In this document: positions 142 to 28,362 of the stretch, piece by piece
How the letters are laid out: every line of letters starts with the position of its first letter
Numbering within the stretch: position 1 is the stretch's first letter
DNA from: Baffinella frigidus
Lineage: Eukaryota; Cryptophyceae; Cryptomonadales; Baffinellaceae
Assembly: GCA_026770585.1 (NCBI GenBank)
Contig: MU646379.1
Location: 144,868-174,732, forward strand
Direction of reading: 5' to 3'
Length of the DNA stretch: 29,865 bases
Made by a program: the position numbers and the translations under genes
Notes under the pieces: model-generated
Databases searched by the model: none
The model's input: the letters and a program-made list of their open reading frames with translations, nothing else
Told to the model about the DNA's origin: nothing

Positions 142-1918
142 GTCAAACCCTAAACCATAAACCCTAAACCATAAACTCTGAACCATAAACCATAAACCAT
201 AAACCATAAACCATAAGCCACAAGCCATAAACCCTAAGCCTCAAACCCTAAACTATAAACCATAAACGCCAAACCTTGAACCCTGAACCCTGAACCCTGA
301 ACCATACACCATGAACCCTGAACCCTAAACCCTCTACCCCACGAAGTCTCTACCCCGGGCGGGGCGGGTATTGCCCCTGAAAAGCGTCGGAGTCCCTCCC
401 CTGAAAAGCGTTGGAGAGGGACTCCAACGCTTTTCAGGGGGATATTATACAGACCCTTATACAGACCCTAAACACGTCGGGGTCTTGCGGTGGACTTGAC
501 TTTCTCACAAGGTTTCGTTATGTGTTGCAATGTTCGTACTGATTCGCGTCCAAACACGTCATCTTGCAACGTTGGATTTCTGCCTGATCAGTCCTCGGAC
601 GCAGGATGGTTGGCATACCAACCGCAAGAAAACCAAGGTCCACTTTTGAGGAATTTAGTACGGCGGGGTCCCGCGTTACTCCAAAAGTGGCCAATCTGTG
701 ATACACATAATAGAAAGACAGTACTCGTCCTCGGACGCAGGATGGTTGGCATACGGTAACTACTTCTTCTTTTCCTTCTCTGTCACTTGCTCTCACCCCT
801 AACCCTAACCCCTCACCCTAAACCCCCATACTCATAACCCGACCCCCAAAAACCTAACCCTAAACCCTAAACCATAAACCTGAACCTAACCCTAAACAGG
901 ACTCGGTACTCTCAGTGGTGCCCCTAAACCCCAAACCTCAAACCCCAAACCCTAAAACCCCATACCCCTAACCCCCAACCCCTAACCCCCAAATCATAAA
1001 ACGTAAAACGTCAACCTAAACTCCTACCCCCAAACCTCAACAATAAACCCTAAAAACGCCTGCAGGACTCGGTACTCTCAGTGGTGATCTACGACCACGA
1101 CCGATCGCTCCTCGGCGGATCATCCGCAGAGTACACCCCCCGCCTACATATTTACCACACGTCCGTGACTTCTTTACTACTCGCCCGTGACTTCTTTACT
1201 ACACCGAATACCGCGCCCCACATCTTCACTTCACGTCCGTGACTTCTTTACTGCACCGAATACCCCGATTCGAACCACCCATAAACGATCTACGACCACG
1301 ACCGGTCGCTCCTGGGCGGATCATCCACAGAGTACACCCCCCGCCTACATATTTACCACACACCCGTGTCTTATTTACTACACCGAATACCGCCCCCCAC
1401 ATGTTCACTACGCGTCCGTGGCTTATTTACTACACCGAATACCGTCCCATCTAAGGATCATCCGCTCCTGGATCGACCGGTCGCTCCTGGGCGGATCATC
1501 CGCAGAGTACCCGCCCGCCCATCCCCCCGGACTTGACCACACAGCGGGCTACCCAGTGATTTTCTTGCTGAAATTGAGCGACATTCCGTACATTCCATTA
1601 CATTTTAGTCGTCCACGACCGTTCGCTCCTCGGCGGGTCATCCGCAGAGTGCGCGCCCTAAACCCTAATCCCTACCACCAACCCTCACGGCTTGGGCAAA
1701 TCGATGATTTTCGATTTCCCGATTTCAAGGGGATCTGGAGCCGTTCAAGTCGGATTCCGACTTCAACCCCCTTGAAATCCCAAATCGAAAATCGTCGATT
1801 TGCCCAATCCCAGAGGGTTGGTGGAAACCCTAAACCCTAAGAGGGCGCGCACGCTGCCGTGGCCCCCGCCCCCGGCAGCTCCTTGGGGGCCTGCGGCCCC
1901 TGACTATAACTTTGTATG

Positions 1919-1965
<47 letters not shown>

Positions 1966-4867
1966 ATATATATATATATGTATATATGTATATATATATA
2001 TCCTCTAGCCGGTTTGAAAAATAAAGTGTCCATCTATATTTCGGGTTTGCTGCGAAATTTCGCCCCTAATTTTTGTCCTTTTTCAAATCTGAAAGCGCAG
2101 ATCCTCGAGATTTGGCCGTCAGCTCCAGAATCTGCTAAAAAAAATCGAGCTGCGATGAAATCTTGAGATCTTTACTACAGGCCAAAAAATATGTTCTAAA
2201 GGGATTATATTCCTATAAAACCGGCTAGAGGATACGTCACGTACGTGACGCTTGACGTGACCGCAGCCGCAACTGTTAGAGAGGTTTTCACATGTGGTGG
2301 CCACCAAAACAAAGAAACGATGCCAAACGATAACGATTCAGTTCCAGCATCGTCATCGTTTTCCAGTGTTCCATTCGCGTGGCCATCAGATGTCACAACC
2401 GTGCTACAGAAGCCTATTTAAACGAAAGTTACTACACGAATGCCCACTTTTAAAAGTACATCGGTTTTAAATAGGCGTTCTACAGAGGTTCCACACGAGA
2501 ACGCTAGAGGGGCCTATTCAGCCCCCGACGTGCTTTTAAAAGTGGGCATTCGTGTAGTAACTTTCGTTGATTGGTCACGTAACTCTGCGAAATTAGCACA
2601 GTCACGAGGTTGGAATACCCTATCCTGGTACACCTATTTATAACCCCACATGTAAATAGGATCCTCCAGCATTCTCGAGTGGTTTCTCGGGCCGTGCGGC
2701 ATCCAGCCCCAGCAGCGATTTTCAGAAGTATGAGTTTAAACGTGGGATACTTGGATCCACGCAGGGCTGGAGGGGGGGGGTATTCAAAAGTCATTTTGAC
2801 GTGACAACTTTCTCAAAAGTCATTTTTAGCACCAAAACGGCTCCAAGAACGAGCAAACGGCTCCAAGAACGAGCATGGAATACCCCACCCAAGGGCCTGG
2901 AGTGGGGTTGCTGACGCGTCGTGGTGCAGGTTCCTGGGGTCGTGCGACATCGATGTCGCACAGGGTCCTCGACACCCATGGGGTGCAGCGCGATGTGAGC
3001 GCGATGTGTATTAATATCGAACGTGAGACCACGGTCTTGCTGACACGAACCGTTTCGTGTTCAGGTTCCTGGGGATAGCGGGACAAATTATGTCTTGGTC
3101 CGAGATGAAATTGATGCGGCATGTTTCAGGTTCCTGGGGTCGTGCGACATCGCGCTCGACCCTATGGGTGTGGACGACCCTGTGCGGCAGTGGTACAAAC
3201 TCGTCTGGGATGAGAAGTTCTCCAAGGCTAAGGAGAAGGTGCTCCAACACTCCCCCCAGACCCTAAACCCCTGAACCAGTTGCCCTATCAGTGTGTCCGA
3301 CACCACCCTGACTATCCCTTAAGTGGCTAGTAGGCGCATACGCCCTACCGTAGGGCCCTAGGACCTGCCTAGGACCTCTTGCGGGTCAATTTTGACCGGC
3401 TGGCCACTTAAGGGATACTCTGCAGTGCGAGGCGGGCGGTGCGGCTGCCTCCCTTAAGTCAACTCGTGCGTGATTAAGTCAATTCGAGTGCACGCGAATT
3501 ATTTGCGTGTTTCAAGCATGCCACACGAGGCTATCCATGCGAACAGAATAAAATAACATTTTAAAATTTGTGGGGAAATGATCACGTTTCCGTACGGATG
3601 TCCGTACGGAAACGTGACCAAATGCAGACTTTTGGCGTGTTTCCTGGGCAATAATCCAATAATTAACTTATGAATCTGTTCGCATGGATAGCCTCGTGTG
3701 GTGCACGGCTTTCATTTTTGCGCTTATATTGTTTTAGTGGGTGGGTTTTAGCGGGCGGACGGGAAGATTTCATGAAAGGCCTTTCATGCGTGCTTTGTTC
3801 TGACCTTGCTACTCCTCAGATTCATAGGCTAACGGCCTGAAAATGGGGTAGTTAGGCATACGGCATTGCCTAGGACCTCCTACCGTAGGCCGAGGGATCC
3901 TAGGACCAAAACGTCTCGGCCTACGGTAGGAGGTCCTAGGCAATGCCGTAGGCCTAACTACCCCATTTTCAGGCCGTTACCCTATTAAGATCTTCGCCAT
4001 GCTTTTCGGCCTTCTCCTGCCCGAGGGTTGCCCGGCCCGCCTCTCTGAAAGTGGCCAGGAGCTGAAAGTGGCCATCTCGCTGAAAGTGGCCTCCTCGCTG
4101 AAAGTGGCCGGGTGGCAGGTGACGGGTCGCGTCCTGATCCGCACACTCGTGCGACCCTTGACGGTCTCGGTGCAACTCGACATTTCCAAGGTGCCCCCCC
4201 ATCCACACAGAGGACTGCAAAGGGATTTTGCGAATCACCCAGAAGTGGGTAAGCCCTATGACCCTACGGTAGGCCATCCGTAGGGACGTAGGGAGTTTCC
4301 TACGGATATCCTAACCGAAACCTGGTTGATATCCAACCAAGTTTCCCTTCGTAGCCCGCTGTGTGGGGCGACATTTCAAAGGTGTCCGCCCAGATCCGGT
4401 CTTGTCCAGGAAAACAGTTGATTTCGTGGACGGACTGCGACACAACTGTGCCGGATAAACGCATCATTTCACAAACAAATATCGTGAAATCAAGGTGCCG
4501 TGGAAGTTACGATGGGCGATGGTCTAGCTCTTCCTGAGTAAAACTGTGCTCGCAATCAACAAATGTAAGCTGCCCTTTTGCACTGGAGTTTCTGCTCTAA
4601 ACCTGTTCAATGGCGAGCCAACTTTTGCTCAGGCATGGCTAGATGGGCGCTGACGCGAAGCGTTTCGTTTTTCGCAGATTCCGCGCGCTCCACGAGACGT
4701 GAACAAGGCTGTGCGGAACCAGGAGCGGGGCGTCGGCCTTCTCGAGGTGTGTCCCACACTCCCCTGACTATAACTTTGTGTGTGTGTAAATTTTTTTTTG
4801 AAAAATGTTTTTCTTTTGAGTGTATTTATGCGCCTTATGAATCATGCGCTTCAGCTCCTCTGAACAC

Positions 4868-4904: not shown

Positions 4905-4905
4905 G

Positions 4906-4940: not shown

Positions 4941-7900
4941 CATATATCCTGGCGATCCTTGCACAAAGTCAACGCTTTTGCAAACAGGTTACAGTGATCT
5001 CAGCGGAGCGGCTTCCGGCAGTGGACAGAGGGGGCTCATCTGACCCCTTCGTCGAACTCCGAATTCGGAGTTGACTCAACAGCCGCACGCTGTAGTTGAC
5101 TTACGGACGTTGACTTAATCACGTAGGATTTGACTTAAGGGAGTTGACTTAATCACGAAGGAGTTGACTTAAGAGAGTTGATTTATCATCAGGTTACGGT
5201 GATATCGGCGGAGCGTCCTCCGGCAGTGGACAGAGGGGGGTCGTCTGACCCCTTCGTTGAACCGTCAACTCAACAGCCACACGCAGGAGTTGACATAACA
5301 CCGCGCGAAGAAGTTGACGTCCGGAGTTGACTTAACCATGAGTTGAATTAAGTATGAGTTGACTTGAGCACCGCATGCAACAGGTTACGGTGATATCGGC
5401 GGAGCGGCTTCCGGCAGTGGACAGAGGGGGCTCATCTGACCCCTTCGTGGAATTGCTCGTCGGGGGGAATAAGCAGAAGACCAAGACGGTACACCCTACA
5501 TCCTAACCCCTAAACCGTACACCCTAACCGCAGGGTATAGGGTTAGGGTGTAGGGTGTGGGTGCAGGGTGCAGGGTGCAGGGTGTAGGGTGTAGGGTGTA
5601 GGGTGCAGGGATACCCTGCACCTTCATCCAGGGTATGTCGAGCACCCTGATCAACTCTCCTTGAACTCCAGAACTGGTGATCGGGGTTCAGGCATTTACC
5701 CAACGTTCTCGCCATGGCAGACTTTATTGTCGGGAATGGCGGGTTTGGGAGAGTGTGGGGCGTGGAGTGGGGGCTATGGTGTGTTGATGGTAGGGTGTGC
5801 TCAACCCCGGTGGGCAACCATCGGGCAGGAGAAGGTCGAAAAGCATGGCGAACATCTTAATAGGGTAACGGCCTGAAAATGGGGTAGTTAGGCCTACGGC
5901 ATTGCCTAGGACCTCCTACCGTAGGCCGAGACTTTTTGGTCCTGGGAGTGGAACTGCTCGTCGGGGGGAATACGCAGAAGACCAAGACGGTGCGAACCCT
6001 GAACCCTAACCCTTAAACCCTACAAATAACCCCTGCACTATATACCCTCATCCAGGCACCCTACACCCCAAACCCTAACTCCGGCACCCTAACCTCCACT
6101 TCAAACCCTAATCTGATGGCTGCCGGCTCTCGTGTAGATCAAGAAAGACTTCTCGGTCAAGTCACTTTCTCCAATCAAGTCACTTTTTCTCGCTTGCTCT
6201 CCTAAACTCTAAACTCTAAACACTAAACACTAAACCCCAATCCAGATCAAGAAAACGCTGCCACCAGAGTGGAACGAGCCGTTCTCGATTGAAGTCCCTC
6301 TTGGCACTCTAACTGCAGGATGTTGGACCAACATCCAACACCATTTCAGTCTAGGTTGAGGACCAACTCCTAGGGTGTAGGGTGTAGAGTGTAGGGTGTA
6401 GGGTGTAGGGTGTAGAGTGTAGAGTGTAGGGTGTAGGGTGTAGAGTGTAGGGTGTAGGGTGTAGGGTGTAGGGTGTAGGGTGTAGGGTGTAGGGTGTAGG
6501 GTGTAGGGTGTAGGGTGTAGGGTGTACGCTGAGGACCAACACCACTTCAACAACCCCATTTCAGACTGAAGTGAGGACCACCTCTAGACTACCTCTAAAC
6601 TGAGGACCACCTCCATTTCAGTAACGTCGCTTCCTCTCTCTCACGCAGATCAAGAAAACGCTGTCGCCGGAATGGAACGAGCCGTTCTCAATCGAGGTGC
6701 CAGCTGGGGCGTCATCACTCGAGTGCAGCGTCTACGACGAGAATTTCGCACAGTTCAATACGTTCATGGGAACGGTGACGCCCCACGCCCCACACCCCAA
6801 GAAACCGTCTTTGAAATCCCCATATCGCAAACTGCAACACCCCGACGCAATCTGGTGTCAAGACTTTCATCAGCAGCCGTCCTAACTCGCTAACAAGTCT
6901 ATTTTAATTCGGGGTCGTGGTACTTTCTCGAGTGGTAGCTCTGCCATTCGATAACCTTTTAAAACTGTAATGCCACAAGCTAACGCCAGCGGACCCCTTA
7001 GCCTACGGTAGGAACCCCCCCTCCTCCTACGACGTTTTTTTAAAAAGGTCTTTAAAAGTCGTAGGAGGGGGGCTCCTACCGTAGGCAATCCGTAGGTTCT
7101 AAGTACCGGAAAAGCAGTTGAGAAGGAGCCGCAGACGCGATCGATCCGGTCAACGAACGGTTCCCCAGCGGAAACACCTGCACATAGCGACAGCAGTTGC
7201 CCGAAGCGTTTCAAAACTGCGGCGTCCCCGCGGCTCCTGAGAGGGTGGTTCCCGAGGCCCCACCTGCGGTAGGCAATCCGTAGGGACATAAGGTGGTCCC
7301 TACGGATACCCTAACCGATGCTTGGTCGACACCCATCCAAGAATCCCTTGGTAGCCCACTGTGTGGCAGGCCCCTTGCGGATGAGCACTCGGGGGGGTAC
7401 GTGACTTGTGTAAAGTCACTCAGACTAAAACTGACTCTCGAGTGCTGCGGGCAGGTGGTGGTGTGTCTCGACCAGCTGGAAGTCGGGAAGGACACAGTCC
7501 AGGTATTCGCCCACGCCCACGAAACGTTGCTTTTTCTGCGGCTGTAGTGTGTCTGGCCCGTTCGTGATGGGGAATGACACAGTCTAGACATTCGCGCACG
7601 TCCACGAAACGTCCCATTTATGTGGTCGTGATGGGGGCGTGACCCCTTTCAGTGGGTGTAATTTGTCGCGTCCGGCCGTGATTGGAAGGACACCGTCCAT
7701 GTATTCGCTGACGTACGTGAAACGAGCCCTTTTCAGTGGTCGTAGTGTGTCTTGGCCTCGTTTGAAGGTGTTTCCACTGAGGCACCGTTCGCTGTCCGGA
7801 TCGATCGTCGCGTGTATTTTTGTTAACAAAAACAAAAATACATATACATAAACACATAGGAGGTAACAGTTAAGGGTGTGGGGTCTCACAGGGAGGTCCA

Positions 7901-9166
7901 TTGCAGCTACGATCGTCACGGTGCACGACCCCGCTTTGTTGCGCATGATACACCCTGTCGCGTGCGTATTTATCTTTGTGCTTGACATCAATTCACAATT
8001 CGCCCGTGTAAAGTTCTCTCTTTGCTTGACATAAATGGTGTATCGGTATGGTTGCAGGTGTTTCCGCTGTGGAACGGGTCGTTAGAGCGCTGTGCAGAGA
8101 AGTTGGCCACCGAAAAATGGGGAAATGGGGAAATTGGAGCCATTTTGTCCACTTGTGAGAAATTCATGGTACTAAATCTCTCAAAAGTTGACAAAATGGC
8201 TCCAATTTCTCAATTTTCTATTATTTCCCGTGGCTAACTTCTCTGCACAGCGCTCTTACCGGATCGAACGCCATCCCGTGAACCTTTCTAATTTTGCCTT
8301 ACTCACATTATGTAAAGCAACTGCTGTCTCTATGTGCAGGTGTTTCCGCTGGGGACCCGTTCGTTGACCGGATCGATCGCGTCTGCGGCTTCTTCCCAAC
8401 TACATTTCCACGCGTATATTTCGTGTATGTTTGGTCCGCGCATTCAAGCCTGCCGGCATGATAACACCGTGTATACTTGTCTGATTAATTTACGTAAATT
8501 ATGTGTGCTTTACATAAATCTTTTGTTTGCAGGTGTTTCCGCTGGGGAACCGTTCGTTGGCAGGATCGATCGCGTCCGGGAACCTGCGGCTTCTCCTCAA
8601 CTACTTCGCCCAGGGCAAGGACACTCTTCGCTACCCCGAGGTATCTCCCGCTTCATGGAAACACCCCCGGGCGTCCTGGACACACACGGACAGCTTCCAC
8701 AACACACCCCTCCGGACGTGATAGCTTCTACAACACACTTCGGAGGTGTGCATTGCTTCTTGGACACACTTGGGTCGATCGCGTCCGGGAACTTGCGGCT
8801 TCTCCTCAATTACTTCGCTCAGGGCAAGGACACTCTTTGCTACCCCGAGGTATGTTAAACCCCAAACCCCAAACCCTAAACCCTAAACCCTACACCCTAC
8901 ACCCTACACCCTAAACCCTGAAACCCTAAACCCCAAACCCTAAACCCCAAACCCTAAACCCCAAACCCTAAACCCTAAACCCCAAACCCTAAAACCCAAA
9001 ACCCAAACCCCAACCCCAAAACCAAAACCTTAACCTTAAAACTAGGTCGACATGGGGGACGTTCGGCAGAAAGCGGCGGAGAGCGGCGCGGGGTCGTGCA
9101 CCGTGACGATCGTCGCCGCCATGGACCTCCCTGTGAGACACGCCCCCCTGATGTATATAGATATAC

Positions 9167-9201: not shown

Positions 9202-12200
9202 TTTATATAATATAAATATATAGTGAGGCAGAAAGCGGCGGAGAGCGGCGCGGGGTCGTGCACTGTGACGATCGTCGCTGCGATGGAGCTCCCTGTGAGA
9301 CCCTACACCCGTACCTGTTACCTCCTATGTATTTATGTATCTATATATATATGTATATATTGCATTAATATGTAAATATATTGTATTTATGTATACATGT
9401 ATATATATATGTATATATTGTGTGCATATACATATGTGTCTGTACGTATATATACAGTGAGGCAGAAAGCGGCGGAGACTGGGGCGGGGTCGTGCACTGT
9501 GGCTATCGTGGCCGCCATGGACCTCCCTGTGAGTCCCTACACCCTTGTCTGGTGGTACCTACTGTGTATGTGTATGTGTATATATATATTTATATACATA
9601 TATATATGTACACTGTATTTGTATGTATATTGTATTTATATTTATATATATATATATGCACATGTCTATATTGTATGTATATATATATATATATATTGTA
9701 GGTATATGTATATTTATATAGTGAGGCAGAAAGCGGCGGAGAGCGGGGCGGGGTCGTGTACCGTCACCATTATCGCCGCGATGAACCTCCCTGTAAACTC
9801 TGAACCCTACACCCCACACCCTGCACCCTGCACCCTGCACCCTGCACCCTGCACCCTGCACCCTGCACCCTGCACCCTGCACTCTGCACCCTGACTGAGA
9901 CTTGAGCCCCACATTGTCTTTTACATGTGGTGTACGCGCCTTAATCTGTCTTTCACATTTTTTGTGTAGAGCATAAAACGTGGATATGTTTTGGGCATGG
10001 TGCTCCCTACCATTTATGTAATGTATTTTGTGTTGCATTGTGTATGATGCAAGAGTGGGACTCTCCCTGATACAAGACTGAATTTCATCTTGGACCATAC
10101 CAAAATCTGTCCTGATGAAAAGGCGTAAGATAGCATCCTTTGATGCCTAAAATAGCATATATACACCCTTACCTTCCGCGTGGGGAGCCTAAGATAGCGG
10201 GACAGATTCTGTCTTGGTCCGAAATTAAATTGGAGGCGTGGTCATGCGTGACTGAGTGGCTTTGTCTCCTAACAATTGCAGGTTTCGGATCCCAAAAACT
10301 CGGGGCTGACATGCTATGCGGAAGCGCGCGCGAATGACTACAAGGCCGCCACCTCGGTTCGACCCCTAATTGATTTACTTAGTCCCCTAATTGATTTACT
10401 TAGTCCCCTAATTGATTTTCTTAGTCCCTATGATTTACTTAGTCCTAGATGGCAGGACTGACCTGCGATGCGGAAGCGCACGCGAATTACTACAAAGCTG
10501 CCACCTTGGTGCGAACTTCCCTCACCCACCTAGACATATACACATATACACATATACACATATACACATATACACATATACACATTTACACATATACACA
10601 TGAACACATTTACACATATACACATATACACATATACACATATACACAAAATAAAAAATACAAATATACACACGCGCTCACACGTATGCGAACCTCTCAC
10701 ACCCGCCCACACATACGTGAACCCCCATACATATATGAAGACGCGTGGCCCACACCCATACATATATGGAGACGCTTGGCTCTCCGCGGGTGTCTCCTCC
10801 CAGCGTTGCTCAAGCCCAAGACACTCTCCTTTTCGACATGAACACCCTACACCTTCAACCCTAAACCCCAAACCCCAAAACCTAAACCCTGAACCCCAAA
10901 CCCTAAACCTTGAACCCTCAACCCTCAACCCTAAACCCTAAACCCAAACCCTAAACCCTAAACCCCCAACCCTAAACCCTAAAACCTAAAACCTAAACCC
11001 TAAACCCTAAACGTTCAAAAACATTCAGGTGGTCGAAGGGAGTCGGCAGCCAGTATTCAACGCGCCAGTCCTCCTCGAAGGGGCTGTTCGTGGAACAGCC
11101 CCGCCGGCAGGCTCGTGAACGCCCGCGTGACCGGTCACGCGGACGCCGAAGCCAACTGTCCGAGGTGACTGTCTTGCGTGTGCTGCCCCCTCAGGTGGTC
11201 GAAGGGAGTCGGCAGCCAGTATTCAACGCGCCAGTCCTCCTCGAAATCACCCCGGACTGCCAGGTCAACTTTCCCTCCCCCCATGTCAACTTACGCAAGT
11301 CAACCTGCTGAAGTCAACTTACTGCTGCGGGTGGTCACCTTTCTCTCCCCAACTTGCTGTTGTCAACTTACTCAAGGCAACTTGCTGAAGTCAACTTGCT
11401 GTTGCGGACATGACTTAGGGTTTAAGGTTTAGGGTTTGTCTCGCGACCAGGACTTCATGTTCTCAACCCCGGTGTCGGGGTGGGGGGGGTTGAGCCAGTG
11501 GCGGTCAAGATTTTCTGGAACGGAGATGATACTACACGAAAACCGATAGACTCGAGTCTAGATTTTCTGAAACGGAGTTGATACTACCGGAAAACCGATA
11601 GACTCGAGCTGCATTGCGGGAAACAAGATAGACTCCATCTGATGCATTGCGTCCTTTCAAGCTTGGCTCTCAAAATTCAGCCTTAGCTTACCAAAGTCAA
11701 CCTCGGCTCTCAAAAATCGACCTCGGCCGGTTGACTTTCAGCGGGTCCACCCGATACTCCTCCTGAAATCAGTTTCTCTGAAACCCCTTAACGCCTAACC
11801 CTAACCCCTAAATCCTCTCCATCAGGTGGTTGAAATCGTGGTTTTCGAAAAGGCTTCCGCCCTCAACATCCGCCGGTGAACCCTGAAACCCAAACCCTAA
11901 ACCCTAAACCCTAAACCCTAAACCCTAAACCCCGATCCCCAAAACCCAAAACCCAAAACCCAAAACCCAAAACCTCAAACCCCAAACCCCAAACTCCAAA
12001 CCCCAAACCCCAAACCCCAAACCCAGAACCCAAAACCCCAAACCTCAAACCCCAAACCCCAAACCCCAAACCCCAAACCCCAAACACCTCACCCTAAACC
12101 CTAGACCCGAAACAGAGGCGACGTGCCGATCGGCATAGCGACAATCCTGCTCGCGTCACTCCCGCCGAACCCCTCCTTCCTTTGGTAATTCCCCAAACCA

Positions 12201-15200
12201 ATACCCGAAATGAGTACCCGAAATAAATACCCGGAATCCAACGACGCCCTGAAACCCCTGCTTTCGAGTAGACGGGCGTTGCATTCGGTGTCGCGTCCGG
12301 TAGGTACGCCTTGCTTCCTTGATCGTCCGAACTGATGAAATGATGACATGGTCGTGTCCGAATTGATTACGTGCTGGCTTGATCGTGTCCGAATTGGTGA
12401 CTTGATGACGTGATCGTGTCCGGCTTGCTGACATGGTTGCGTCCGGTGGACACGACTTGATGGCGTGATCGCGTCCAACTTGATGACTTAATAACATGAT
12501 CGTGTCCGGCTTGCTGACGTGGTCGTGTCCGGTAGGTACGACCTGATGCCGGTCCGTCCTGGCGACGCCCGCATGGGTGCCATCAAGGTCAAAATTCTGA
12601 ACCCTGAACCCTAAACCCTGAACCCGAAACCCGAAACCCTAAAACCGAAACCCGAACCAATAAACACTAAACCCGAAACACAAAATACAAAACATGAAAC
12701 ACCAAACACGAAACCCGGAACACTAAGCACTAAACACTAAACCCCAAACCCCAAACCCCAAGCCCCAAACCCCATACCCCACACCCCAAACCCCAAACCC
12801 TAAACCCCAAACGCAAAAGGTGGTCACGGACCCGCACTTCATTCCGGAGCTCAAGCTAAATCGCCCGCGGCGAGAGGTCCCTCTCCTGCAAAAGTCAACC
12901 TTTGTCGAAAAGTCAACCTCGTCAAGTCAACTATCACCAGAAAAGTGGATGGTTTCTTTCCTAGACGCACAGACTATCGTTCTCGGTGCCGAAACCAACC
13001 CGGTGCAATCATCGTGAACCCTCAACCGGAAGACTTGGCAAACTCCAACGAATCTGTTCACCCGTGACTCTATAATCTGTAATCAAGGAATTTTTGGAAC
13101 TATGGTGATACGTCAACGGTTACCCCTTGTACAACCAATTACGAAATCAATATTTCACATCCATGCAGGTATCGCGAGTGCGAGCGAACGCCTCGAAGGG
13201 GTTGGGAACCCTCGAGATGGTGGTCATCGCCGCCAAGCAGCTCCCCTCCGCAGAAGGTCCCGAGAGCCCTACTCCTACCTCTATCGCAGAGCCCAACTCC
13301 TAGCTTTGTCTGACCAATTGGGTAATCCCGGGCTCTTTTCCGCGCCAAAGCTGGCGGGTTTGTCCTGCGAATTCAGCGTATCAGCTGGAGATTAGTCAGC
13401 CAATACTGGTTTCGTATTTCGTGTTTCGAGTTTGCCTTCTGTTTCGGGTTTCGGGTTTCGGGTGGATCGTGACCTTCCTGTTCCCGGCAGTGACAACCAC
13501 CAGCGGCTCCCGATCCCGCCCTGTCTGTCAGCCAACACCCATAGAATTCAGCATGTCAGCTGGAGATGAGTCAGCCAACTCCCAGAGGCCAACGGCCTGA
13601 AAATGGGGTAGTTAGGCCTACGGCATTGCCTAGGACCTCCTACCGCAGGCCGAGGGATCCCAGGACCAAAAAGTCTCGGCCTACGGTAGGAGGTCCTAGG
13701 CAATGCCGTAGGCCTAAGTACCCCATTTTCAGGCCGTTACTCTATTAACACGGCTGAATGACCACCTCGAGATGGTGGTCATTTCCTGCAAAGCAGTTCC
13801 CGTCTGCCGAAGATCGAGAGCCCTACCCCACACCCCAAACTCCAAACCCCAAAACCCACACCTTAAACCCTGAATAATAATAATAAAAAATGATAAATGA
13901 TAAATAATAAATGGTGAATATAAAATAATACACGATAAATAAACCCTCCGTAAAACCTGAAGCATAAACCCCAATCCCCAAACAGGGCGGGATCGGGAGC
14001 CGCTAGTGATTGTCACTGCCGGGAACAGGAAGGTCACGATCCACCCGAAGCACTAAAATCGAAACAGAAGGCAAACTCGAAACACGAAATACGAAACCCG
14101 AAACCTGGAACCCGAAACCCGAAACACGAAACACGAAACCCGAAGCCCGGAACCCGAAACCCCAAACCCTAAACCCTAAACCCCAAACCCCTAAACCTCA
14201 GACCCTAAACCCCACAGGTTACGATCGAGTCAGGAAAAAAGGGATTAAATCCCGTGTGGAACAAGCCGGTCGTGTTGGAAATCTCTCCGGACGTTGAGGA
14301 GGTCAAGCTTGAGGTCTCGTCCCCCAATCCGCGTCTAATTAAACGTCTCGTCCTCGAATCCGTCTATGTAAACGACCTGGTCCGTCCTTGTAAACATATC
14401 CGGTCGTGTTGGAAATCTCGCCGACGTGGAAGAGGTCAGGCTCGAGGTCTCGTCCGAGAATCCGCGTCTATTTAAACGTCGCATCCTTGAATCCGTGTCT
14501 ATTTAAATGTGTCGTCCTTGAATCCGTGTCTTTTTTCACACCCGATCCGTCCGTTTACAACGAAAGACGTGCGCCTGAAGAGGCGCTGGATCCTCGTTCG
14601 TAGCGCAGGTCGTTGACTGATCCAGATAGTTGACTGATCCAGATAGTTGACTGATCCAGAACGTTGACTGAAGTGAGGGCGCGTTTGCGGTGGCAGGTTC
14701 TGGACCGGCTGGGAAATGCCACGAATGGCGGGAAGAACCTGGGAGTGGTGCTGCCCTTTGACCCATTTACCAGATCCGTGGATCCGTTCTTTGAACCATT
14801 TACCCGTGCCTTGGAGCCATTTTCCTGAAACGCGTCCGGGGTATGGCGGGGCAACTTCATCTCCACAAAAGTATTAATTAATTGCTTTTCGCGCAACGAA
14901 ATTTACTACACAAATGCTCTACTATTACTTTTATGAGCAAATCGTGTAGTAATTTTTGTTGCCCAAAAGCAATTAATTAATACTTATATGGAGATTAAAC
15001 TATTCACGAACAGGCAACCTAATAGGGTAACGGCCTGAAAATGGGGTAGTTAGGCCTACGGCATTGCCTAGGACCTCCTACCGTAGGCCGAGACTTTTTG
15101 GTCCTAGGATCCCTCGGCCTACGGTAGGAGGTCCTAGGCAATGCGGTATGCCTAACTACCCCATTTTCAGGCCGTTAGTCTATGAAACCTTGCGCTTTTT

Positions 15201-18200
15201 CGGAGGGAACGCGCGCGCGAGAAGATCCGTTTTGAAGCCATCACTCGCTTTGGCTGAGAACCCCTCTACAACTCCGCATCGTTTGTTCGTGGCTGGGCAG
15301 TTGACTAAAAGCGATAGTTGAAAGTTGACTAAAAGCGAAAGTTGACTGGACCGCGGGCTTGTTCGCAGATAACGGTGAAGTTGGACGATCTGAAGGAGGG
15401 GGAGGAGTACGATTTCTGGAGCGATCTGAAGACGGGGGAGACGCTTCGCGCGCAAGGGTCCTCGCCCTCCCCACTCGACCAAAAAGTCTCGGCGAATAGT
15501 CTAACAGTCAACCCGAGAGAGGCAGAGATAAAACCTGGGTGGTCAAAATTTGCAACTGTTTCCTTCTTTTTGTAGCCAGCCGATGTTAATAGGGTAACGG
15601 CCTGAAAATGGGGTGGTTAGGCCTACGGCATTGCCTAGGACCTCCTACCGTAGGCCGAGACTTTTTGGTCCTCGGATCCCTCGGCCTACGGTAGGAGGTC
15701 CTAGGCAATGCCGTATGCCTAACTACCCCATTTTCAGGCCGTTAGCCTATGAATGCGCCTCTTTTTCCTCGTGGCCGCCAGATCTGAAACCGCTCTGTAC
15801 TCGCAGCAAAAACTTGGTGCCGGACCCACCCGAGGCTAGAAATGTGACCATTTTAAAACGGGGGTTCTTTTACAAGAGAAGTAAAAAAAGGTGGGTGTAG
15901 TAATTTTCACACAAATAGGGGCGTTTGGTCACGTTACTGGGGGGATTCCCCCAGTAACGTGACCAAGCCTGCCCGTGACTGGTACTAAATTTGACTACCC
16001 CACATTTAAAATACTCCCTCTTCCAGCCCCGAGTGGCCCTCCAAGTTCATCTCGGTAGATAACTGAACCGGTATCACTTTCACGTGGAGTCAGCGAAAAT
16101 GGCGAAAATCAGCGTCGTCTCGCCGGCCGGCAAGGCGTTGCCCCCCAAGAGCCCTGGCATCGCAAAGGACAAGCCTTCCGCCGAGGCCAAGGCCAGCGTC
16201 GCCAACTTTCTTGGTTTACTCAACAGGCGTTAAGTCAATAGTGGAAACGTTTTTGGTTGAAAAAAAAATTGGTTTAGTCAACGTTTCTTGGATCGCCCTC
16301 CCTCAAAGTGGACTACTGAACCCCCAGAGACAGCTTTTCGATTCCGGGAAAGCCTGCCACATGTGCAAACGGGCTTCGCCGTTTAGTCAACTGATTGTGG
16401 AATTCACGTTAAGTCAACCGTTTAAGTCAACCGTCTCTTATCTTAAACGTGACGGTTCACTGTCACGTTCGACAAACACAGTAAATGTGTGTTTGGTTGG
16501 CAGGTCGCTGCGGGTGATGGTGAACTACGTTCAGAAGATCGCCTACATCGACCCTGCCGAACGCGGCCTCATCCAGGCACGACCTACCCCCTACACCCTA
16601 CACCCTACACCCTATCTACCCTACCCTACCCTACCCTGCCCTACCCTACCCTATCCTACCCCACCCTACCCTACCAAACCAAACCAAACCAACCCCTGCC
16701 CTACCCTACCCTACCCTAACCTACCCTAACCTACACTAACCTACCCTGCCCTACCCTACCTTGCCCTCCCCTACCCTACCCTGCCCTGACCTGCCCTACC
16801 CTGCCCTACCCTACCCTACCCTACCCAACCCAACCCAAACCAACCCAACCCAAACCAAACCAAACCAACGAAACACAGCCCTGCCCAACCCTTTCCTACC
16901 CCTACCCTAACCCGGGACGCTTGCCTCCGGTGCACTCTAAACCCCGAGCCTCGAACCCCAAACCCTACACACTAAACCCTAAACTCGAAACCCTGAAACC
17001 CTGAAACCCTGAACCCTAAACTATAAACCCTATGTGAGCAGACGGCGATTGGCACAGCCGAGATTCTGATCATCTCTGCCCGCTCCGTCGGCCATATCGG
17101 TACTGAGGGTTTAGGGTTTAAGGTTTAGGACATCTCGGTACCCACACAGGACTGGGGGGGGGGGTATTTCAAAAGTCAACTATCGCAGTTTTTTTTGGAA
17201 AACTCGGGGCCCTTCTCTGCCAAAAGTTGACACTTTGGACCAATGGCTCCAACTTTGGACCTGGAATACGATTTTTTTGCACCAGCGTCGCTATCTTTCG
17301 CCACTGCCGAATCGTTAGTTTTCCTGGTTCTAAGCCTTCATGTTTCAGCGCCCGTCCCGGTACCAACGCTGCTTGGTTCAGGTAACCTTTGCACGGGGGG
17401 CTACAGGGGTTACTTGAAATTAAGGACACGCACCGCCCTAGGGTCCTACTGTAGGCCTATGCCTAGGGGGCATAGGACTACCCTAGGACTGATGCGTGCC
17501 CTTCCTTTGGAGTAACCCCTTAATCAGAGGTCAGGGGCTTTGTTCTGTGGTAAAGCTATGTCGAGGCTAAGCTATAAAATTACGCCCTCAAGATAGCACA
17601 GAACGGTGATTTAAATCGAATTTGTTTCCGCATGATATCAGAGGGCATGGTATCAGAGGGCAAAGGGCATGGACACGCACCGCCGGTCCTACTGCAGGCC
17701 TAGGAGCATAGGACCACCCTAAGGCTGGCGCGTGTTGTTAATTTGGAGTAACCACCTTACCCCTTTGTCAGAGGGGATGGTGCCGACGGAAGACAGCGGC
17801 GTAGCTCTGTTCCCGTCCACGAAACCGCCTTCCTCCGTGTCAGCAAAGGTGAAAACGCCTCCTTTTGTGTCAGCAAAGGCCCAAACGCCTTGTTGGGTGA
17901 AAGAAAAAGGTGAAAACACCTTCTTTTCGAATCTTTCGAAGGAATCTTTCGTGTCGGTTTAAGACGCCTTGTTCCTTGTCAGCACGGTGCGTCTTGGTTA
18001 TCCACCGTTACTCTTGAGTAACGGCAATTCCTTTTGCTTTGTGACGTTCCCCACTCTCGACGTTTGTCGTACCGCCCTAGGGTCCTGCTGTAGGCCTATG
18101 CCTAGGAAGCATAGGACTACCCTAGGGCTGATGCCATAGGACTACCCTAGGGTGGGCAGCGCTCTCTGAATGGCTGTCGAAGAGCAAGAGGCACGACCCC

Positions 18201-21200
18201 CCTCCGTATACAATTGCCCGTACAATAAGGTTCTTGGCTGGACGTGGAAAGCTTTAAAACTCCTTTAAAACCCACTTGTAGCCTCCCCGAACCCCCACTT
18301 CACTCGGTAGCGGTCGACGTTTGTCTCGGTGGGCAGCGCTCTCTGCATGGCTGTCGAAGAGCAAGAGGCACCGGTTATATGTGTATATGTCAGTTGAACG
18401 TAAAGTTAACGGGGCGACAACTTTAGAGCGTCGTCCACCTATCCCGAATAACGCATGGGGTTGACTTAGCAGTTGAACTATTTGCTTGACTTGGGGGGAG
18501 GCGCCACCAGATCATCTATCATGGTAGACCAGATATTCTATCATCATATCCACGACAGGCGTGGTTTGACCCCCTCCAAATTCCGCAACGGAGTCTCCTT
18601 TGCCCACTCTCAACTAATAAATAGTTATGGCAGTTGAAGTATCGGTCAATTTCTTTACGCCAAAGAAAATTACTATACGGTTGGATCATAGTAGTAGTAG
18701 TAAAGCATGTTGTAATTTTCATTGCCCCAAAAGAAATTAATCAATCGTTTTACTGACATGAATATGGACCGCAGGCCCACAAAGCGCTCTGCGGACCACA
18801 CTGTCAAGTTATCGCCCAGTTGGCTTCACTTTCAACTTACATATATAACATAAATGGACTCATATATATTACATATATGGCCCGCAGGATGGTGCGTCCC
18901 CCTCCAAGTTCAACACCAAACTGGGGGTCTCCTTCGTTAATGGCTCAAGTCTCGTTACTGCGGGATATCCCGCAGTAACGTGATCAAACGCGCCTGAGTG
19001 TGAAAATCACTACACACAGCCCCACGTGTAAAGGACTTGCGGGTTTAAAATACTCACATTTCTGGCCATGAGTGGCAGGCTGGAGCATCACCATCCAAGT
19101 TCATTTTTATAACAAGATAGCGAAAAAAATATAACATTTTTATGACAAGGTAGCGATAATTTCATAAGAGTTCATTTTTATAACAAGATCCGCCAGTCTA
19201 TGGACCACAGTCTAACGTGGACCACAGTGTAAAGTTGCCGCCCAGTTGACTTCCCACTTTCAACTGACATATACATATATGGCCCGCAGGCTGGCGCATC
19301 CCCCTCGAAGTTCAACGCCAAACCCAGAGTCTCCTTCGCCAATGTGGACCACATTCTAAAGTTGTCGCCCGGTTAACTTCACTTTCAATTTGCATATATT
19401 ACACATATGGACTCATATATTACATGTATGGACTTACATATATTACATATATGGCCCGCAGGCCGGATCATCGCCCTCCAAGTTCAACGCCAGACCCAGA
19501 GTCTTCTTCGCCAATGTGGACGACACTCTAAAGTTGTCGTCCAGTTGACTTCACACTTTCAACTGACATTTATTTACACGACCCGCAGGCTGGACCCTCC
19601 TCAAAGTTCAACGCCAAACCCGGGGTGTCCTTCGCGAATGTGGACCACACTTAATTGATATTAATAAATACTTTTACTGGCCTGAATACATCGACCGCAG
19701 GCGGACTTATCCTCCTCCGGGTTCGAAACCAGGCCCGGGGTTTCCTTCGCCAATGTGGGCCACACTCTAAAGTTGTCGCCAAGTTAACTTTACGTTCAAC
19801 TGACACATACACATATGACCCGCAGGCTGGACCCCCCTCCAAGTTCAACAACAAACCCGGGGTGTCCTTCGCGAATGTGGACCACACTTAATTGATATTA
19901 ATAAATACTTTAACTGGCCTGAATACATCGACCGCAGGCGGACTCATGTAACTCCACCTCCCAAGGTGGAGTTCCCTCCCAAGTAAAGCATGTCAACGCT
20001 CATAATTGCTTGGGGTTGGCGATGACAGTCGAAACCAGGCCCGGGGTTTCCTTCGCCTTAACTTCACGTTCAACTGACAAATACACATATGACCTGCAGG
20101 CTGGACCTCCCTCCAAGTTCAACAACAAACCCGGGGTGTCCTTCGCGAACGGCTCAGGAAATGGCTCAAGCGCCAACGACCCTGACGTGTCAGCTATCTC
20201 GCCATTTTCGATGACCGCCTCGCCTGCCGTCTCCAACGCGACTCCCGCTGTAACCCTGAACCCTAAACCCTAATTCTTCATCCCTAGTTCCGACTCCCTA
20301 AACCCTAAACCCTAATCCCGACTCCCTAATCCCTAATCCCTAATCTCTTAACCCTAAACCCTACACCCTGAACTCAAAATCCTCAACCCTGAATCCTGAA
20401 TCCTGAACCCTAAACCCTAAACCCTACTCCCTGAACCCCAAACACTCAACACTAAACACTAAACACTAAACACTAAACACTAAACACTAAACCTCTGAAC
20501 CAGCCTCCTCGTTCGGGGCCCTCCGGTCTTTCCTCGACGGAAGGTCCGCTTCCCGACTCTCTTACTAGAACGTCGCTTATTAGCTAACTAAGACAGTCGC
20601 TTACTTTTCCGACTCTCTTAATTCTCCGGCATGATCATGCAAATGTGTTACTGTGGTCAAGTGTGAGATCATGCAAATGTGCTGCCTGGCGAAATGATGT
20701 GGTTGTGTGTGAGACGGCGTGTTTTTGTGAGAGGTGGTGTTACATTGCTAAATGACGTGATTTTGTCAGGCGGATAAATGGAGTGATTTTGTGTCAGGCG
20801 GAAAAATGACGTGATTTTGTGTGGGGCGGTGTGCAGAAGGGCCGCGGCTGCTGGCGGAAGGTTCTCTCGTGCGGATCCAGGCGAAACTCGGCACCATGAA
20901 ACGCATCACTCAGGTGCTAGCTCCGCCGCACTCGGCTTGACGGACTATTCCTGAGTTGACATGCTGGGTTTGCGGTACAAATCCGTCAACTTAGGAGCGG
21001 AAAAGAGCCCGGGCTCCCCAAATTGGTGAGCCCAAAAAGACTGGCGGGGAGGTTGCTCGTGCGGATCCAGGAGAACCTCGGCACTATGAAATTCATCACT
21101 CAGGTCCGCATAGAGAGGGTTTCACATTCATAGGCTAACGGCCTGAAAATGGGGTAGTTAGGCATACGGCATTGCCTAGGACCTCCTACCGTAGGCCGAG

Positions 21201-24200
21201 GGATCCTAGGACCAAAAAGTCTCGGCCTACGGTAGGAGGTCCTAGGCAATGTCGTAGGCCTAACCACCCCATTTTCAGGCCGTTACCCTATTAACATCGG
21301 CTGGCCACAAAAAGAATGAAACGGTTGCAAATTTTGACAGTTTAGTACCAGAACCGTCAACTCCAGGCGAAGCTCGGCACCATGAAACGTATCACCCAGG
21401 TTTTATCTCTGCCTCTCTCGGGTTGACTGTCAGACTATTCCTAAGTTGACATGCTGGGTTTGCGGTACAGATCCGTCAACTTAGGAGCGGGAAAGAGCTC
21501 GGGCTCCCCAAATTGGTGAGCCCGAATAGACTGGCGGAGAGTTTGCGCGTGCGGATCCAGGCGAAGCTCGGCACCGTGAAACGCATCACCTAGGTCGGAC
21601 GCATCCCAAACGATAATCGGATCGAGCGGTTTTCACACGGTTGGAACCAAATCGTCACATTGTGGCGTTCTTTTATTTTTTTTGGCCAACAGATTCATAG
21701 GGCAACGTCCTGAAAACCGGGTAGTCAGGCCTACGGTATTGCCTACGGTAGGCCGTAGGGTCCCTAGGACCTAATGTTTCGTAGGACCCCCCTAGGCCCC
21801 TACGGCCTACCGTAGTCAATACCGTAGGCCTAACTACCCCATTTTTGGTCCGTTACCCTATCAAGATGTCGAAACCGTTCTACCTTCTCAAGTTCGAATG
21901 CTTTCCTGGGAAAAGGATGCGAAAACCCATTAGAATTAATCGTTTCGCGAAATTAAACGATTTTTTGCAAGTTCTTTCGTCGCAACAGGATGTGGTAACG
22001 CATGCGAATTAAAAAAAGGCGAAATTGGCTGAATTAAATTTAACATGTTCCCGTTTTAAACAGGTGTCACGTGCGACGCCACATCCGCACTACAACGAGA
22101 AATTGATCCTCAAGATCCCCCACCCTGCCGCGGTCCTCGAGGTACCTCCATGTCCCACTCGAGACCGGGAGAGGGAGTATTTTAAATGTGGGGTTGTTGA
22201 ATTTAGTACTAGTCACGGGCGGGCTTGGTCACGTAACTGGGGGAATTCCCCCAGTTACGTGACCAAACGGCAAATAACCTGACTATTTGAATGAAAATTA
22301 CTACACACTTCTTTTTTTCTCTCACTTGTAAAAGACTCCCTGTTTTAGAATAGTCAGCCTTCTAGGCTCGAGTGGACAACTGACACTTGCCCTTGTTGAG
22401 CACGCTTCTGCGTAATGAAGAACCTGGTATGCACACCCCTTTGCGGTCAAGTTGCTGACGGTTGCTGACGGTTGCTGACGGTTTGCTGACGCGTGGCGGT
22501 CGCGTCCCAATTTCTGGCACGGTTCGTAACCGCGAAGGGGTGTGCACAAGACTCTTATTAAACCCGGTTTGCTGACGCACGGGGGTCACGTCCCATTTTC
22601 TGGTACAGATTGCGATCGTGGAGGAGGACGTGGCCGGCGAAATCTCGCTCACGCCCAAGGATTGTAATGAAAATTACTACACGGTTGCTTTAATGTTACT
22701 AGTACAGATCGTTGAGTGTAGTAAATTTCATTGCCGAAATGTTTGAAATTAAATCAGTTTTCACATGAGATTTCCTGGCACAGATTGCGATCGTGGAGGA
22801 GGACGTGACCGGCGAGATATCGCTCACGCCCTACGCGACGTGCGAGGTTCCGATCTAACCCCGAAACCCTCAACCCTGAACCATCAACCCTGAACCCTGA
22901 ACCCTGAACCCTGAACCCTGAACCCTAATCCCTGAACCCGGAACCCCAAACCCTAAACCCTAAATCCCAAACCCTGAACCCTGAACCCTAAACCCTGAAC
23001 CCTAAACCCTGAACCCCAGAACCCAAACCCCAAACCCCAAACTCCAAACCCTCAACCCTAAATACTGAACACTGAACACTAAACACTAAACACTAAGCCA
23101 GGTTCCAATAGCGCAACTCAAGGACGGCGAGACCAAGGATGCCTGGTATGTTCGCCAAAAGTTGACTGGGTTGGTACTGACTGTCAACTTTCGCCATTGT
23201 TTCGTTATTTTCGGGGGCATCAGATGCGAAACCCCCTACTCGAGGCTGGAAGAGGGGGTATTTTAGATGTAGGGTTGTTAAATTTAGTACCAGTCACGGG
23301 CATGCTTGGTCACGTTGCTCAAGTTATAACTTGAGCAACGTGACCAAATGCCCCTATGTGTATGAAAAGTACTACGCATTTGTTTTTTTTCCTCCACTTC
23401 TAAAAGAAGCTCTGTTTTAAAATGGTCCCATTTCTAGCCTCGAGTGGCCGCTCTAACCTCTTCTCCCTCGCAACACTGTTTCAAGTACCCTCATGTTAGA
23501 TTTTATGTTTTGGCATGTTAGGGTGCGTGTCGCTATCGTGTTGTAAACATAAAAGCCATGCCCAACATATCATAAACGCGATACTGATTCAATAAACTGG
23601 CAGGTATGTTCAAGCTATGTCGAGGCTAAGATAGCAGACTCCACCCTCAAGATGACACAAAACGATGTTCAAAATTGAGTCTGATTTCGCATCAAAACAG
23701 GTATCCGCTGCTGCGGGTACCCGCAAAGGTTGACCATGAATTGTCAACTTCCGCTAAATTGTCAACTTTCGCCAGGTACCCGCTGAAAGCCAAGCGCGTC
23801 ACGTCCCCGAGATCCTCCCTGTACTTGCCCCTCCTCCCCGAAACGCCGAAAGTCAATTGTCAACTTCCTAGCGCTGCCTCGCTCGGGTTAATCGACTATT
23901 CTCAATTTGACATTCTGGGTTCGCGGTGCAAACCAGTCAGCTTTCGAGCGGTGAACGGGACGTCTCCGGATCTCATCCCGGCGAGTATTTCTGAGAAATA
24001 CGATTTCGGGGATCTCCGATTCGATTTGCAACGAAAATTACTACACGGACGTGACTGAAAATGTCCGGTGTGTAGTAATTTTCGTTGCCAGGATCGTATT
24101 TCTCAGAAATACCCAGGATGAGATCTCCTCAGGTCAACTCATGCGTCAACTTTCGGCGAATCCTGTGGACGTTCAACCCCTATGTCCCTACGGATTGCCT

Positions 24201-27200
24201 ACCGTAGGGTCCCGTGGATCATCCACTTTTGGACCTCCTCTGCCTGCGCAGAAAATTGCCATTACCCTGTTGACTTTCACGTGGAAAGCTGACATCGGTG
24301 TGTTGACTTTTCGCGCAGCTCACGGCAACTTTCAGCGGCGGAGTCAAGCATCTCAGGAGAAGACACCCATGATCCCATCCTCGGGAGCATCCAGATCCTC
24401 ATCAAGATTTCAAGAAATTGGGGCTTCAACCTTTCGGTGCTCGGAGGCCTCATCGCCTGTCCGTGGCAGGTATCTCAGTTCAAATCCGAATCCAAAGTTG
24501 ACAATTGACTTGAGGCAGGTTATGAGTCCCACCCGCCACTTTTGACACAGATCAACTTTTGCTGTTGTGTGTCTTTTTCTGGATGCAGAACGCCCACGAG
24601 CCGAACAAACCCCAAACCCCAAACTCCAAACCCCAAACCCAAAACCCAAAACACCCAACACCAAACATCAAACACCAAACACCAGACCACAAATCACAAA
24701 CACCAAACACCAAACACCAAACACCAAACACCAAACACCAAACCCAAACACCAAACCCCAAACCCCAAACCCCAAACCCCAAACCCCAAACCCCGGATTC
24801 CAGACCCCAAACCCCAAACCCCAAACCCCAAACCCCGGATTCCAAACCCCAAACCCCAAACCCCAAACTCCCAAACCCCAAACCCCAAACAACAGTGCGG
24901 GACACACTTCGAGGCGGACCAAGCCTCAGAGCACTTCATCCAGTGTCCTCTCGCGCCCGACCCGACCGCGGTCGTGTCATGCGTCCACTTAGGTCCTCCC
25001 TCACCCAAAAGTCATCATGCGTCCACTTAGGTCCTCCCTCCCCCAAAAGTCATCGGCAACCTCGTCGTACTCCACCAACTTTCACGAGAGAACATTCCAT
25101 TGATCTCGGCCTGTTTCCAAAAGTTGATCATGTGCCAAGATTTTTGTCAACTTGAGATCAGACACCCGAGATCTGGGGTGTCTGCAAGGTGAATTTGAGG
25201 TCTGAAAATCGACGATTTGGTCTTTCCGTGAGGGTTGGTGGCTCGGTGTCGTGGTTCGCCCCTGGACCCTGGACCCCAAACCCTAACCACTACCCAGTTA
25301 TGGGTTGGGATCCAGGGTCTGAAGCTCCACATAACTCCACAACTGTACCACCAACTGTGCAGGTAACTGCACAACTCAGTAACTAGCTGTATTACTCTAT
25401 AACTAACTGCACAACTCTATAACTAACTATACAACTATAAAACTATACAACTATACAACTATACAACTATACAACTATACAACTATACAACTATACAACT
25501 ATACAACTATACAACTATACAACTAACTGCATAGGTGTACACCTAACTGCGCAACCCGCAGGACTCGGATGCTCATTCCGCGGCCCGCGCTTCGGAATGA
25601 AGGACCATCTTGTCATCTGCCCCTTTGAGCCGGTCCCTCCCCCCCCTCCGATACACTCAAACCCTAAACCCTAAACCCTAAACCCTAAACCCTAAACCCT
25701 AAACCCTAAACCCTAAACTCTGCACCCTAAACCCTAAACTCTGCACCCTAAACCCTAACCCCTAAAAAAAAAACATTTAACCCAAAACCATCAACCATAA
25801 ACCATAAACCATAGACCGTAGACCATAAACCTTAAACCATAGACCATAAAACATTAAACATAAAACATAAAACATAAACCATAAACCATAAACCATAAAC
25901 CCAAACCCAGGTCAAGGAAGTAGTGCGGGGATACCTCAAGGAAAACGTCAGCTTGAAAAAGGCCCTGGAAACACAGGTCGTGACCGCGCACCGTATACAA
26001 TAGATGTATAGCCACCATATACAATAGAAGTATAGCCTACATAAATACATGTACGAAACAAAATGTGCCAGGAAGGAATGTACAATAGAACACCTAGCTC
26101 TGTCTCACACGGTTTGGTCTCGTCAATTTGACGAGACCAAATCGCCAAAAGTTGACGAGTCCCTGTGCGGGGCCGTCAACTTTTGGCGCGACAGGGACTC
26201 GTCAACTTTTGGCGGTTCGAATTTAGTCAACCCGACTGAGGCTGAGCTAGGACACGCTCTCCTGTTTTCTCTCTCGCATCTTTCATGATTTGGGGTCCAT
26301 TGGCTTTACTTGGAAACTGGCAGCAAAAGTCGGTTTGATGCCCCTACAAGAAACTGGCTAGTTTGCATCGAAGCAGAACCAACGACAAAAAAATGTTGAC
26401 TAAAGAGCGCTCAACTCTCAACTCTAAACTCTAAACTCAAAACTCAAAACTCAAAACTCAAAACTCAAAACTCAAAACCCAAAACCCTGAACCCTGAAGC
26501 CCAAACCCCAAACCCCAAACCCTAAACCCTAAACCCTAACCCCTAAACCCTAAACCCTGAACCTTAAACCCTGAACCCTAAACTCTGACCCCTCAACCGT
26601 AACCCCCAAACTCTCAAGCAGGAAGAGGAGATAGCGGTGCTCCGCTTCAAAATCCAAAACATGGAAATCGCCGCAGAGGTCTGAAATCCTACGGGGGGGG
26701 GGGTAGACGTCTTATCTAGGCAACCGGAAAGCATATCCTGCGGTTACCGGCAGGGTCAAAGTTAATTAATTGTGGGTATTTCCGGCAACTTTTGCCGATT
26801 TCAAGGGGAAATAATAGAAAGACGCAGGGCGTAAATTGACTCTCCCGCGTAGTCGCCCTCCACGCCAGATTCTTGCAAGGGGTTGCCAAAAGTCAATTTC
26901 CCCTCCAGGCAGTGGTTTTCAAAAGTTAACAAACACCACCTGTGGTGTTTCAAAAAAAATCGACACCCGCATCCAATCTGGCGTGGCTCCTCCTCCCCCC
27001 GACCACAATGCTGTTTATCCCTTAAGTTCATAGTTCACAACGCCTTCGCGAAGCAATAATGGCTCCAAGCCCTGGTACAAATTTTGTACGGGGCTTGGAG
27101 CCATTATTGCTTCGCGAAGGCGTCGGAAACTATTAAAGTGACCAGGTGGTCAAATTTGAGGGCCAAGAGGTCCTAGGCAGGTCCTAGGGCCCTACGGTAG

Positions 27201-28362: not shown

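Follow-up and report, generated by a model that had tools for sequence, protein, structure and literature searches.

The window, a stretch of 29,865 nt from the Baffinella frigidus genome (contig MU646379.1, positions 144,868 to 174,732; assembly GCA_026770585.1, 382.5 Mb in 1364 contigs), contains the greater part of a gene that encodes a multi-C2 protein; 38 of its exons lie on the + strand between window positions 76 and 28362. Their translation (969 aa) is letter-identical to residues 363-1331 of P0001, a 1645-aa predicted protein detected in a predicted-protein search and derived from a 5440-bp contig with the source label 'lgn', which we take to denote assembled sequencing runs. An initial exon model (medians of 69 bp for exons and ∼600 bp for introns) was adjusted to P0001 by placing the exon 4 donor at 4190, removing the block 18311-18373 and setting the end of the last exon to 28362. 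All acceptors in the 38-exon model are AG, and the donors are GT in 37 cases and GC in one, at 16577 (exon 22). The stretch designated L009, which is located upstream of the window and contains six transcript-checked exons (x1-x6) of the same gene, likewise has a GC donor at exon x5.

Pfam detected five C2 stretches followed by a sub-threshold TRAF-like zinc finger in the window protein, and WD40 repeats are among the precomputed domains of P0001, beyond the part encoded in the window. The relatives found in two protein searches are transcript or environmental contigs, such as P0001 and P0016, and distant C2 proteins of fungi, a rotifer, fish and a ciliate.

Half-exon copies in the window

Each exon was compared by blastn with the unmasked window (E <= 1e-3, copies ≤3 kb away), and local copies were detected for 15 of the 38 exons (E2, 3, 6, 7, 9, 10, 11, 12, 17, 18, 19, 25, 27, 29, and 37), 31 of them direct and four inverted, in agreement with an initial annotation that had proposed local copies of many exons. 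Matches >3 kb away or within another exon, the block 18311-18373, L004 (which is part of the window) and all-N stretches were excluded, and the tandem arrays that overlap exon ends at 17821-17927 and 24977-25054 were left outside the count. Exon 1 was also excluded, its matches being 6 kb off, at exon 7 and the exon 7 copy, as between related C2 domains; with exon 1 kept in, the count is 16 exons. The proposal that a repeated mechanism rather than chance had been at work is likewise upheld by a shuffle control (one shuffle per locus, within 100-base blocks), which gave no direct and no inverted self-matches at every tested locus, against 74 direct and 24 inverted pairs <3 kb apart in the window.

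What had been described as copies of exons are indeed local, but in direct orientation they are half-exons: none of the 31 direct copies is full length or carries both splice sites. The flanking intron that was said usually to accompany them is carried too, but often amounts to just 2-20 bp, with longer stretches in some. Repeats are hard to assemble, but the copies differ from the intact exons by 0 to 25%, most spacers are unrelated to the flank and the pattern recurs in independent contigs (see below), so that an assembly artefact is scarcely credible.

In the following, copies that carry an exon start are termed start copies and those that carry an exon end are termed end copies, all positions being given on the + strand. 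Exon 2 (1066-1130) is followed by end copies at 1287-1331, 1474-1506, and 1610-1648, and a 23-bp repeat at its start (898-920 and 1064-1086) flanks a telomere-like array (921-1063). The intact exon 3 (3130-3238) is preceded by a start copy (2912-2952) and an adjoining inverted copy (2954-2996). Exon 6 (5384-5488) has start copies upstream (4983-5056 and 5187-5261) and an end copy downstream (5948-5989), and exon 7 (6649-6774) has a start copy at 6243-6298. The exon 9 cluster spans 7760-8853, with upstream start copies ending at 7807, 8083, and 8403, the exon itself at 8533-8640 and a downstream end copy at 8772-8853; an inverted copy of this exon is found at 7108-7200. Downstream of exon 10 (9046-9132) are end copies at 9227-9301, 9457-9530, and 9725-9794, and its inverted copy is located at 7841-7934. 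Single end copies follow exon 11 (10282-10356; copy at 10455-10514), exon 17 (13169-13256; 13765-13824), exon 19 (14218-14313; 14393-14507) and exon 37 (27628-27736; 27966-28033), and exon 18 (13986-14032) has a full inverted copy at 13464-13527. Six start copies, beginning at 18870, lie upstream of exon 25 (20100-20249) and owe part of their spread to later tandem duplication; the match of four of these copies starts 9-10 bp into the exon and is directly preceded by an acceptor-like gcag, which was read by eye. Exon 27 (20837-20913) is followed by end copies at 21041-21105, 21362-21401, and 21531-21595, the first of them separated from the exon by a piece of a dispersed repeat, family B (20917-21040). 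At exon 29 (22784-22846, intact) the two halves of a 62-bp repeat, a start copy at 22595-22656 and a second half at 22770-22831, enclose a dispersed fold-back element (22657-22769). Exon 12 is described below. In L009 the first coding exon of the gene (1542-1631) has a full inverted copy 5.4 kb downstream (7079-7168; 100% over 90 bp).

Exon numbers of the initial annotation were matched to the present model only as far as possible. Its exon 7 (7455-7502) has copies only in a wider alignment, in which they include about 18 bp of exon. Its exon 23 is possibly the block 18311-18373, an open block with AG/GT borders that is in frame and is indeed duplicated (18328-18371 is repeated at 18151-18194 with 97.7% identity), yet is missing from P0001.

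Positions of the copies relative to their exons

Of the direct copies in the window, the 16 that lie upstream all include the exon start with its acceptor and the 15 that lie downstream all include the exon end with its donor, the labels having been checked against exon positions because some realignments had slid into neighbouring repeats. The initial annotation held that in many clusters the last copy in the + direction is the intact one; the side is instead set by which splice site a copy carries, not by being last, and this side rule is stricter than the earlier one and replaces it. The exons named as exceptions to the earlier rule (2, 7, 8, 9, 17, 26, and 36 in its numbering) do have end copies downstream, but so do exons 6, 11, and 17 of the present model.

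The same arrangement is found elsewhere in the gene and the genome. All six exons of L009 have copies, and among its 13 direct copies seven are start copies upstream, four are end copies downstream and two are internal, so that all 11 with an exon end follow the rule. Other genes of the same genome, which the initial annotation had suggested checking, were represented by 36 protein-kinase and C2 exon stretches obtained from profile searches, and copies were present at 14 of these, one of the matches concerned containing a stop codon. Their 27 copies comprise 13 start copies upstream, 10 end copies downstream and four internal copies, with none reversed and none inverted; the rule therefore holds for 23 of the 23 copies that carry an exon end, start and end being judged here against profile-match ends (within 9 bp) rather than transcript-checked exons, and the test having been written after the list of local repeat pairs had already been seen. 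In total, 65 of 65 direct copies carrying an exon end obey the rule, and six internal direct copies (two in L009, four in other genes) carry no splice site. When copies are grouped by exon and side, all 24 groups in this gene and all 15 elsewhere obey, for which the even-chance probabilities are 6e-8 and 3e-5, respectively.

The side rule bears on repair-mediated capture, in which a nearby stretch is copied into an intron break in either orientation. According to the accessible part of a study of vertebrates (PMC2671141), repair-mediated duplications there are short and local (proximal mean 162 bp), most donors lie within 5 kb, and some include pieces of exons (of 824, four had partial exon/intron stretches as donors and a few had full exons); no side rule was found in that part of the report, whereas here half-exons occur at 15 of 38 exons in one gene and follow a strict one. 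Inverted copies do exist (four of 35 in the window, and the full, 100% identical exon in L009), and for these capture is plausible. However, capture would place direct copies on either side of an exon, and the 65 of 65 that obey the rule make it an improbable source of the copies in general and disfavour it for direct ones.

That the mechanism acts on exons, as the initial annotation supposed, is not supported by the distribution of duplicated bases: local direct duplications account for 30% of the bases in exons and 26% of the unmasked bases in introns, and when the exon map was shifted circularly the observed exon value was reached in 498 of 2000 shifts. Exon targeting was therefore rejected, exon bases being duplicated no more often than unmasked intron bases. 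In 93.9 kb of unmasked sequence of this genome, 171 non-redundant direct pairs were detected outside hairpins, with a median repeat of 53 bp and, among spacers <1 kb, a median spacer of 131 bp. Exon copies are conspicuous because selection holds the exon still, while both halves of an intron duplication drift.

The divergence of the copies relates to the idea that they are functional, either as mutually exclusive exons or as splicing decoys. In the other genes, half and whole exons differ by 8.0, 6.5, and 13.8% at codon positions 1, 2, and 3, and by 15.5% where the alignment extends beyond the profile match (26 pairs, L008 1121-1572 having been omitted from the 27), which is close to what one decaying and one constrained branch would give. 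In this gene the differences, summed over divergence classes, number 65, 38, and 159 in 832, 832, and 821 sites at positions 1, 2, and 3, for a set comprising 14 of the 15 window exons with copies and x2-x6 of L009, the copies of exon 12 and x1 being identical to their exons. In the least diverged class 23 of 30 differences are at third positions, an excess that counts against the insertion model presented below (p = 0.0003 against an assumed share of 0.443, with copies that are not independent), and the third-position bias is stronger than in the other genes (Fisher p 0.036). Mutation bias was rejected as its cause, per-base mismatch being 0.112-0.134 for the four bases in 35 intron-only pairs; one possibility is a divergent allele as the source. 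The third-position excess in this gene is what functional exons would lead one to expect, but each of the 31 direct copies in the window lacks at least one splice site, all seven indels in copies are frameshifting, P0001, the single transcript seen, consists of intact exons only, with no copies, and the other genes fit neutral decay; a function as exons is thus very improbable.

Spacers and the family A element

The insert could be recognized at exon 12 (11195-11263, + strand), where a 111-bp insert separates the halves of a 55-bp duplication. The left half (11025-11079) consists of the acceptor (4 bp) and the first 51 bp of the exon and is identical to 11191-11245, which belongs to the right half and intact exon (11191-11263), and the insert between them (11080-11190) has as its core, at about 11089-11183, a ∼95-bp high-copy element designated family A. 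Exon 12 is spliced whole in P0001. For family A 41 matches were listed, with 40 of 993 first-look candidates scored, and the 40 other listed matches are 95-99% identical to the exon 12 insert.

Flanks were analysed for the window copy and the 20 best-scoring of the 40 other listed copies, which are not a random sample, over up to 160 bp to the left and 200 bp to the right of the core. Direct repeats of local sequence flank 18 of these 21 copies (22-75 bp, median 36, seven of them perfect), and no flanking repeat was found within this range at the remaining three (L049, L054, and L056); when left flanks were paired with right flanks of other copies, repeats appeared in 3 of 168. The inserts between the repeats measure 93-235 bp (median 120.5) and consist of the core and a variable tail, mostly on the right; the left end is fixed within a few bases in most of the 21 copies, and the right end is near-fixed before the tail begins. 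Family A is thus dispersed, with reproducible ends and locus-specific direct repeats on both sides, as is a transposable element. Most DNA transposons generate short target-site duplications of fixed length; those of family A are 22-75 bp and variable. Target-primed retroposition of the LINE/SINE type leaves an A-rich or simple 3′ tail and target-site duplications of variable length, and the duplications of family A are long and variable, with no A-rich tail visible by eye in the flanks. At exon 12 the element did not give rise to a new intron within an exon, as introners do, but shares a longer intron with the half-exon. A known RNA family was rejected as the identity of family A (one match, E 0.08, far below the gathering score), and a search of viral contigs gave no matches to a 33-nt pattern.

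The most likely origin of the copies (probability about 0.7) is the insertion of small pieces of DNA with long duplication of the target site, each copy being one half of such a duplication. It is proposed that small pieces of DNA, namely family A, probably other repeat pieces, telomere-like arrays and unique filler, insert throughout the genome where breaks are widely staggered, which would leave some 20-110 bp of target in duplicate, one copy on each side. Where such a duplication straddles a splice site, one side would keep the complete exon and its splice site, and the other would become a half-exon within the intron, with the insert lying between half and whole. Events on the acceptor side would leave exon starts upstream and events on the donor side exon ends downstream; a duplication wholly inside an exon would break the gene and be lost, and full copies would be rare, the duplications being mostly shorter than an exon. 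The half-exons would then decay, and introns would gain roughly 100-250 bp per event. When family A lengths were placed randomly on the gene in a simulation, the events touching an exon were 33% start, 33% end, 34% internal and 1% full, so that the absence of full direct copies needs no selection.

Family A, which has long flanking repeats at 18 of the 21 sites, behaves as this insertion model requires. Family A filler was found at only one exon event, that of exon 12, and we infer that most other exon copies arose likewise; the general claim rests on the geometry, the family A demonstration and the statistics of the side rule rather than on an insert identified at each exon. Long duplications of variable length, with filler on one side, would be expected if widely staggered breaks were repaired, and those seen here may have been made in this way or by target-primed reverse transcription with distant second-strand cleavage.

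Plain tandem duplication of intron-exon junctions by slippage or unequal exchange, with one breakpoint in the exon and subsequent decay of the intron part, predicts the same side rule. Homology between spacer and flank (z > 4) is present in 12 of 47 exon-copy pairs, which may be plain or secondary tandems, the pair 4621-4806/4807-4991 in L009 is exactly tandem, and secondary spread is seen in the exon 6, 10, 25, and 27 clusters. However, such homology was not detected in the other 35 of the 47 pairs, including exon 12 with its identical halves, so that these are probably not plain tandem duplications, and the long repeats that flank family A at 18 of 21 sites also speak against this origin. 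Plain tandem duplication explains a minority of the copies and is unlikely to be the general explanation.

Genome-wide searches with three exon-copy spacers identified that of exon 12 as family A and that of exon 27 as a piece of family B, and found that of exon 9 (8645-8771) to be single-copy in the searchable sequence. At most exon events the filler matches no recognised repeat: at least 30 bp of a repeat dispersed in the sample occurs in 11 of 42 spacers ≤300 bp, compared with 11.9 by chance. In eight of these 11, an uncontrolled figure, three quarters or more of the spacer is taken up by the repeat. The spacers show no clear enrichment in hairpins or arrays. Family B gave 3429 first-look candidates and was aligned over 124 bp at 20917-21040 and in L061-L080. 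Its copies begin with CTAGCTCT and many end, ∼14 bp further on, with CAGAGCTA, the ends forming inverted repeats, and they are older. It was rejected as an element with long target-site duplications, repeats (11-14 bp) being found at only 2 of 20 copies, and at exon 27 it stops short of its usual end, so that either captured filler or an older neighbour is suggested.

Fold-back hairpins were rejected as a general cause, abutting direct repeats occurring at 2 of 47 hairpins and at 28 of 300 random positions. The window also contains near-perfect palindromes of ∼170 bp at 3821-3988, 13583-13748, 15020-15186, 15586-15753, 21127-21294, and 21694-21864, which are mostly 94-98% identical to one another (about 70% for 21694-21864) and have relatives in L005, L017, and L037.

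The six shortest of the 37 introns (185-278 bp; 11876-12115, 12588-12819, 14033-14217, 20250-20503, 22847-23101, and 25633-25910) consist to at least 75% of telomere-like 7-base arrays and have GT and AG ends, and in 14 of the 15 introns with >10% array the coding strand has more C-rich than G-rich words. Such arrays may have become introns, and the same break repair may also have produced the short introns that consist mostly of them.

Known processes and intron growth

Introners are short, non-autonomous repeated elements that create introns, and their splice sites can derive from the target duplication (PMC9860276; PMC7789003). As far as these two reports were available, introners resemble family A in being short non-autonomous repeats that hit genes, but their repeats are 3-9 bp in some families and 3-5 nt, compared with 22-75 bp for family A, and they make new introns, whereas the exon 12 insert lengthens an existing one. 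In the available portion of a report on potato RdRp (PMC4974935), a tandem duplication over an intron end and exon start made a new intron in one case; the present cases are numerous, and in most of them unrelated DNA separates the two halves. Telomeric repeats have been described as inserted at double-strand breaks, with the target duplicated at few loci, in the corresponding portion of another (PMC7215372), compared, in this gene, with a single array enclosed by a 23-bp duplication at exon 2 and with introns that consist mostly of arrays. A literature survey covering titles and the beginnings of abstracts yielded no published description of the side rule or of telomere-array introns.

The processes involved are known ones in a new form, and the unusual target duplication of the element is the newest part. 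A broader view, offered tentatively as a possibility, is that family A is a ∼95-bp mobile element of an undescribed kind, with internal hairpins and without a visible A-rich tail, which integrates at staggers of 22-75 bp and, together with similar insertions, could be a main engine of intron growth in this lineage, turning exon edges into intron and leaving the protein unchanged. If true, a ∼95-bp element with 22-75-bp target duplications would need an integration mechanism of its own.

For gene finders the half-exons, with their splice sites, are a warning of decoys. The side on which half-exons lie provides a countable test between insertion with long target duplication and the pasting of nearby copies that can be applied to any intron-rich genome. 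The copies in this gene should no longer be interpreted as exon duplication but as the result of insertions with long duplication of the target, visible through conserved exons. Intron lengthening is usually argued from distant comparisons, whereas here its steps are visible within one gene, with the exon as a fixed ruler.
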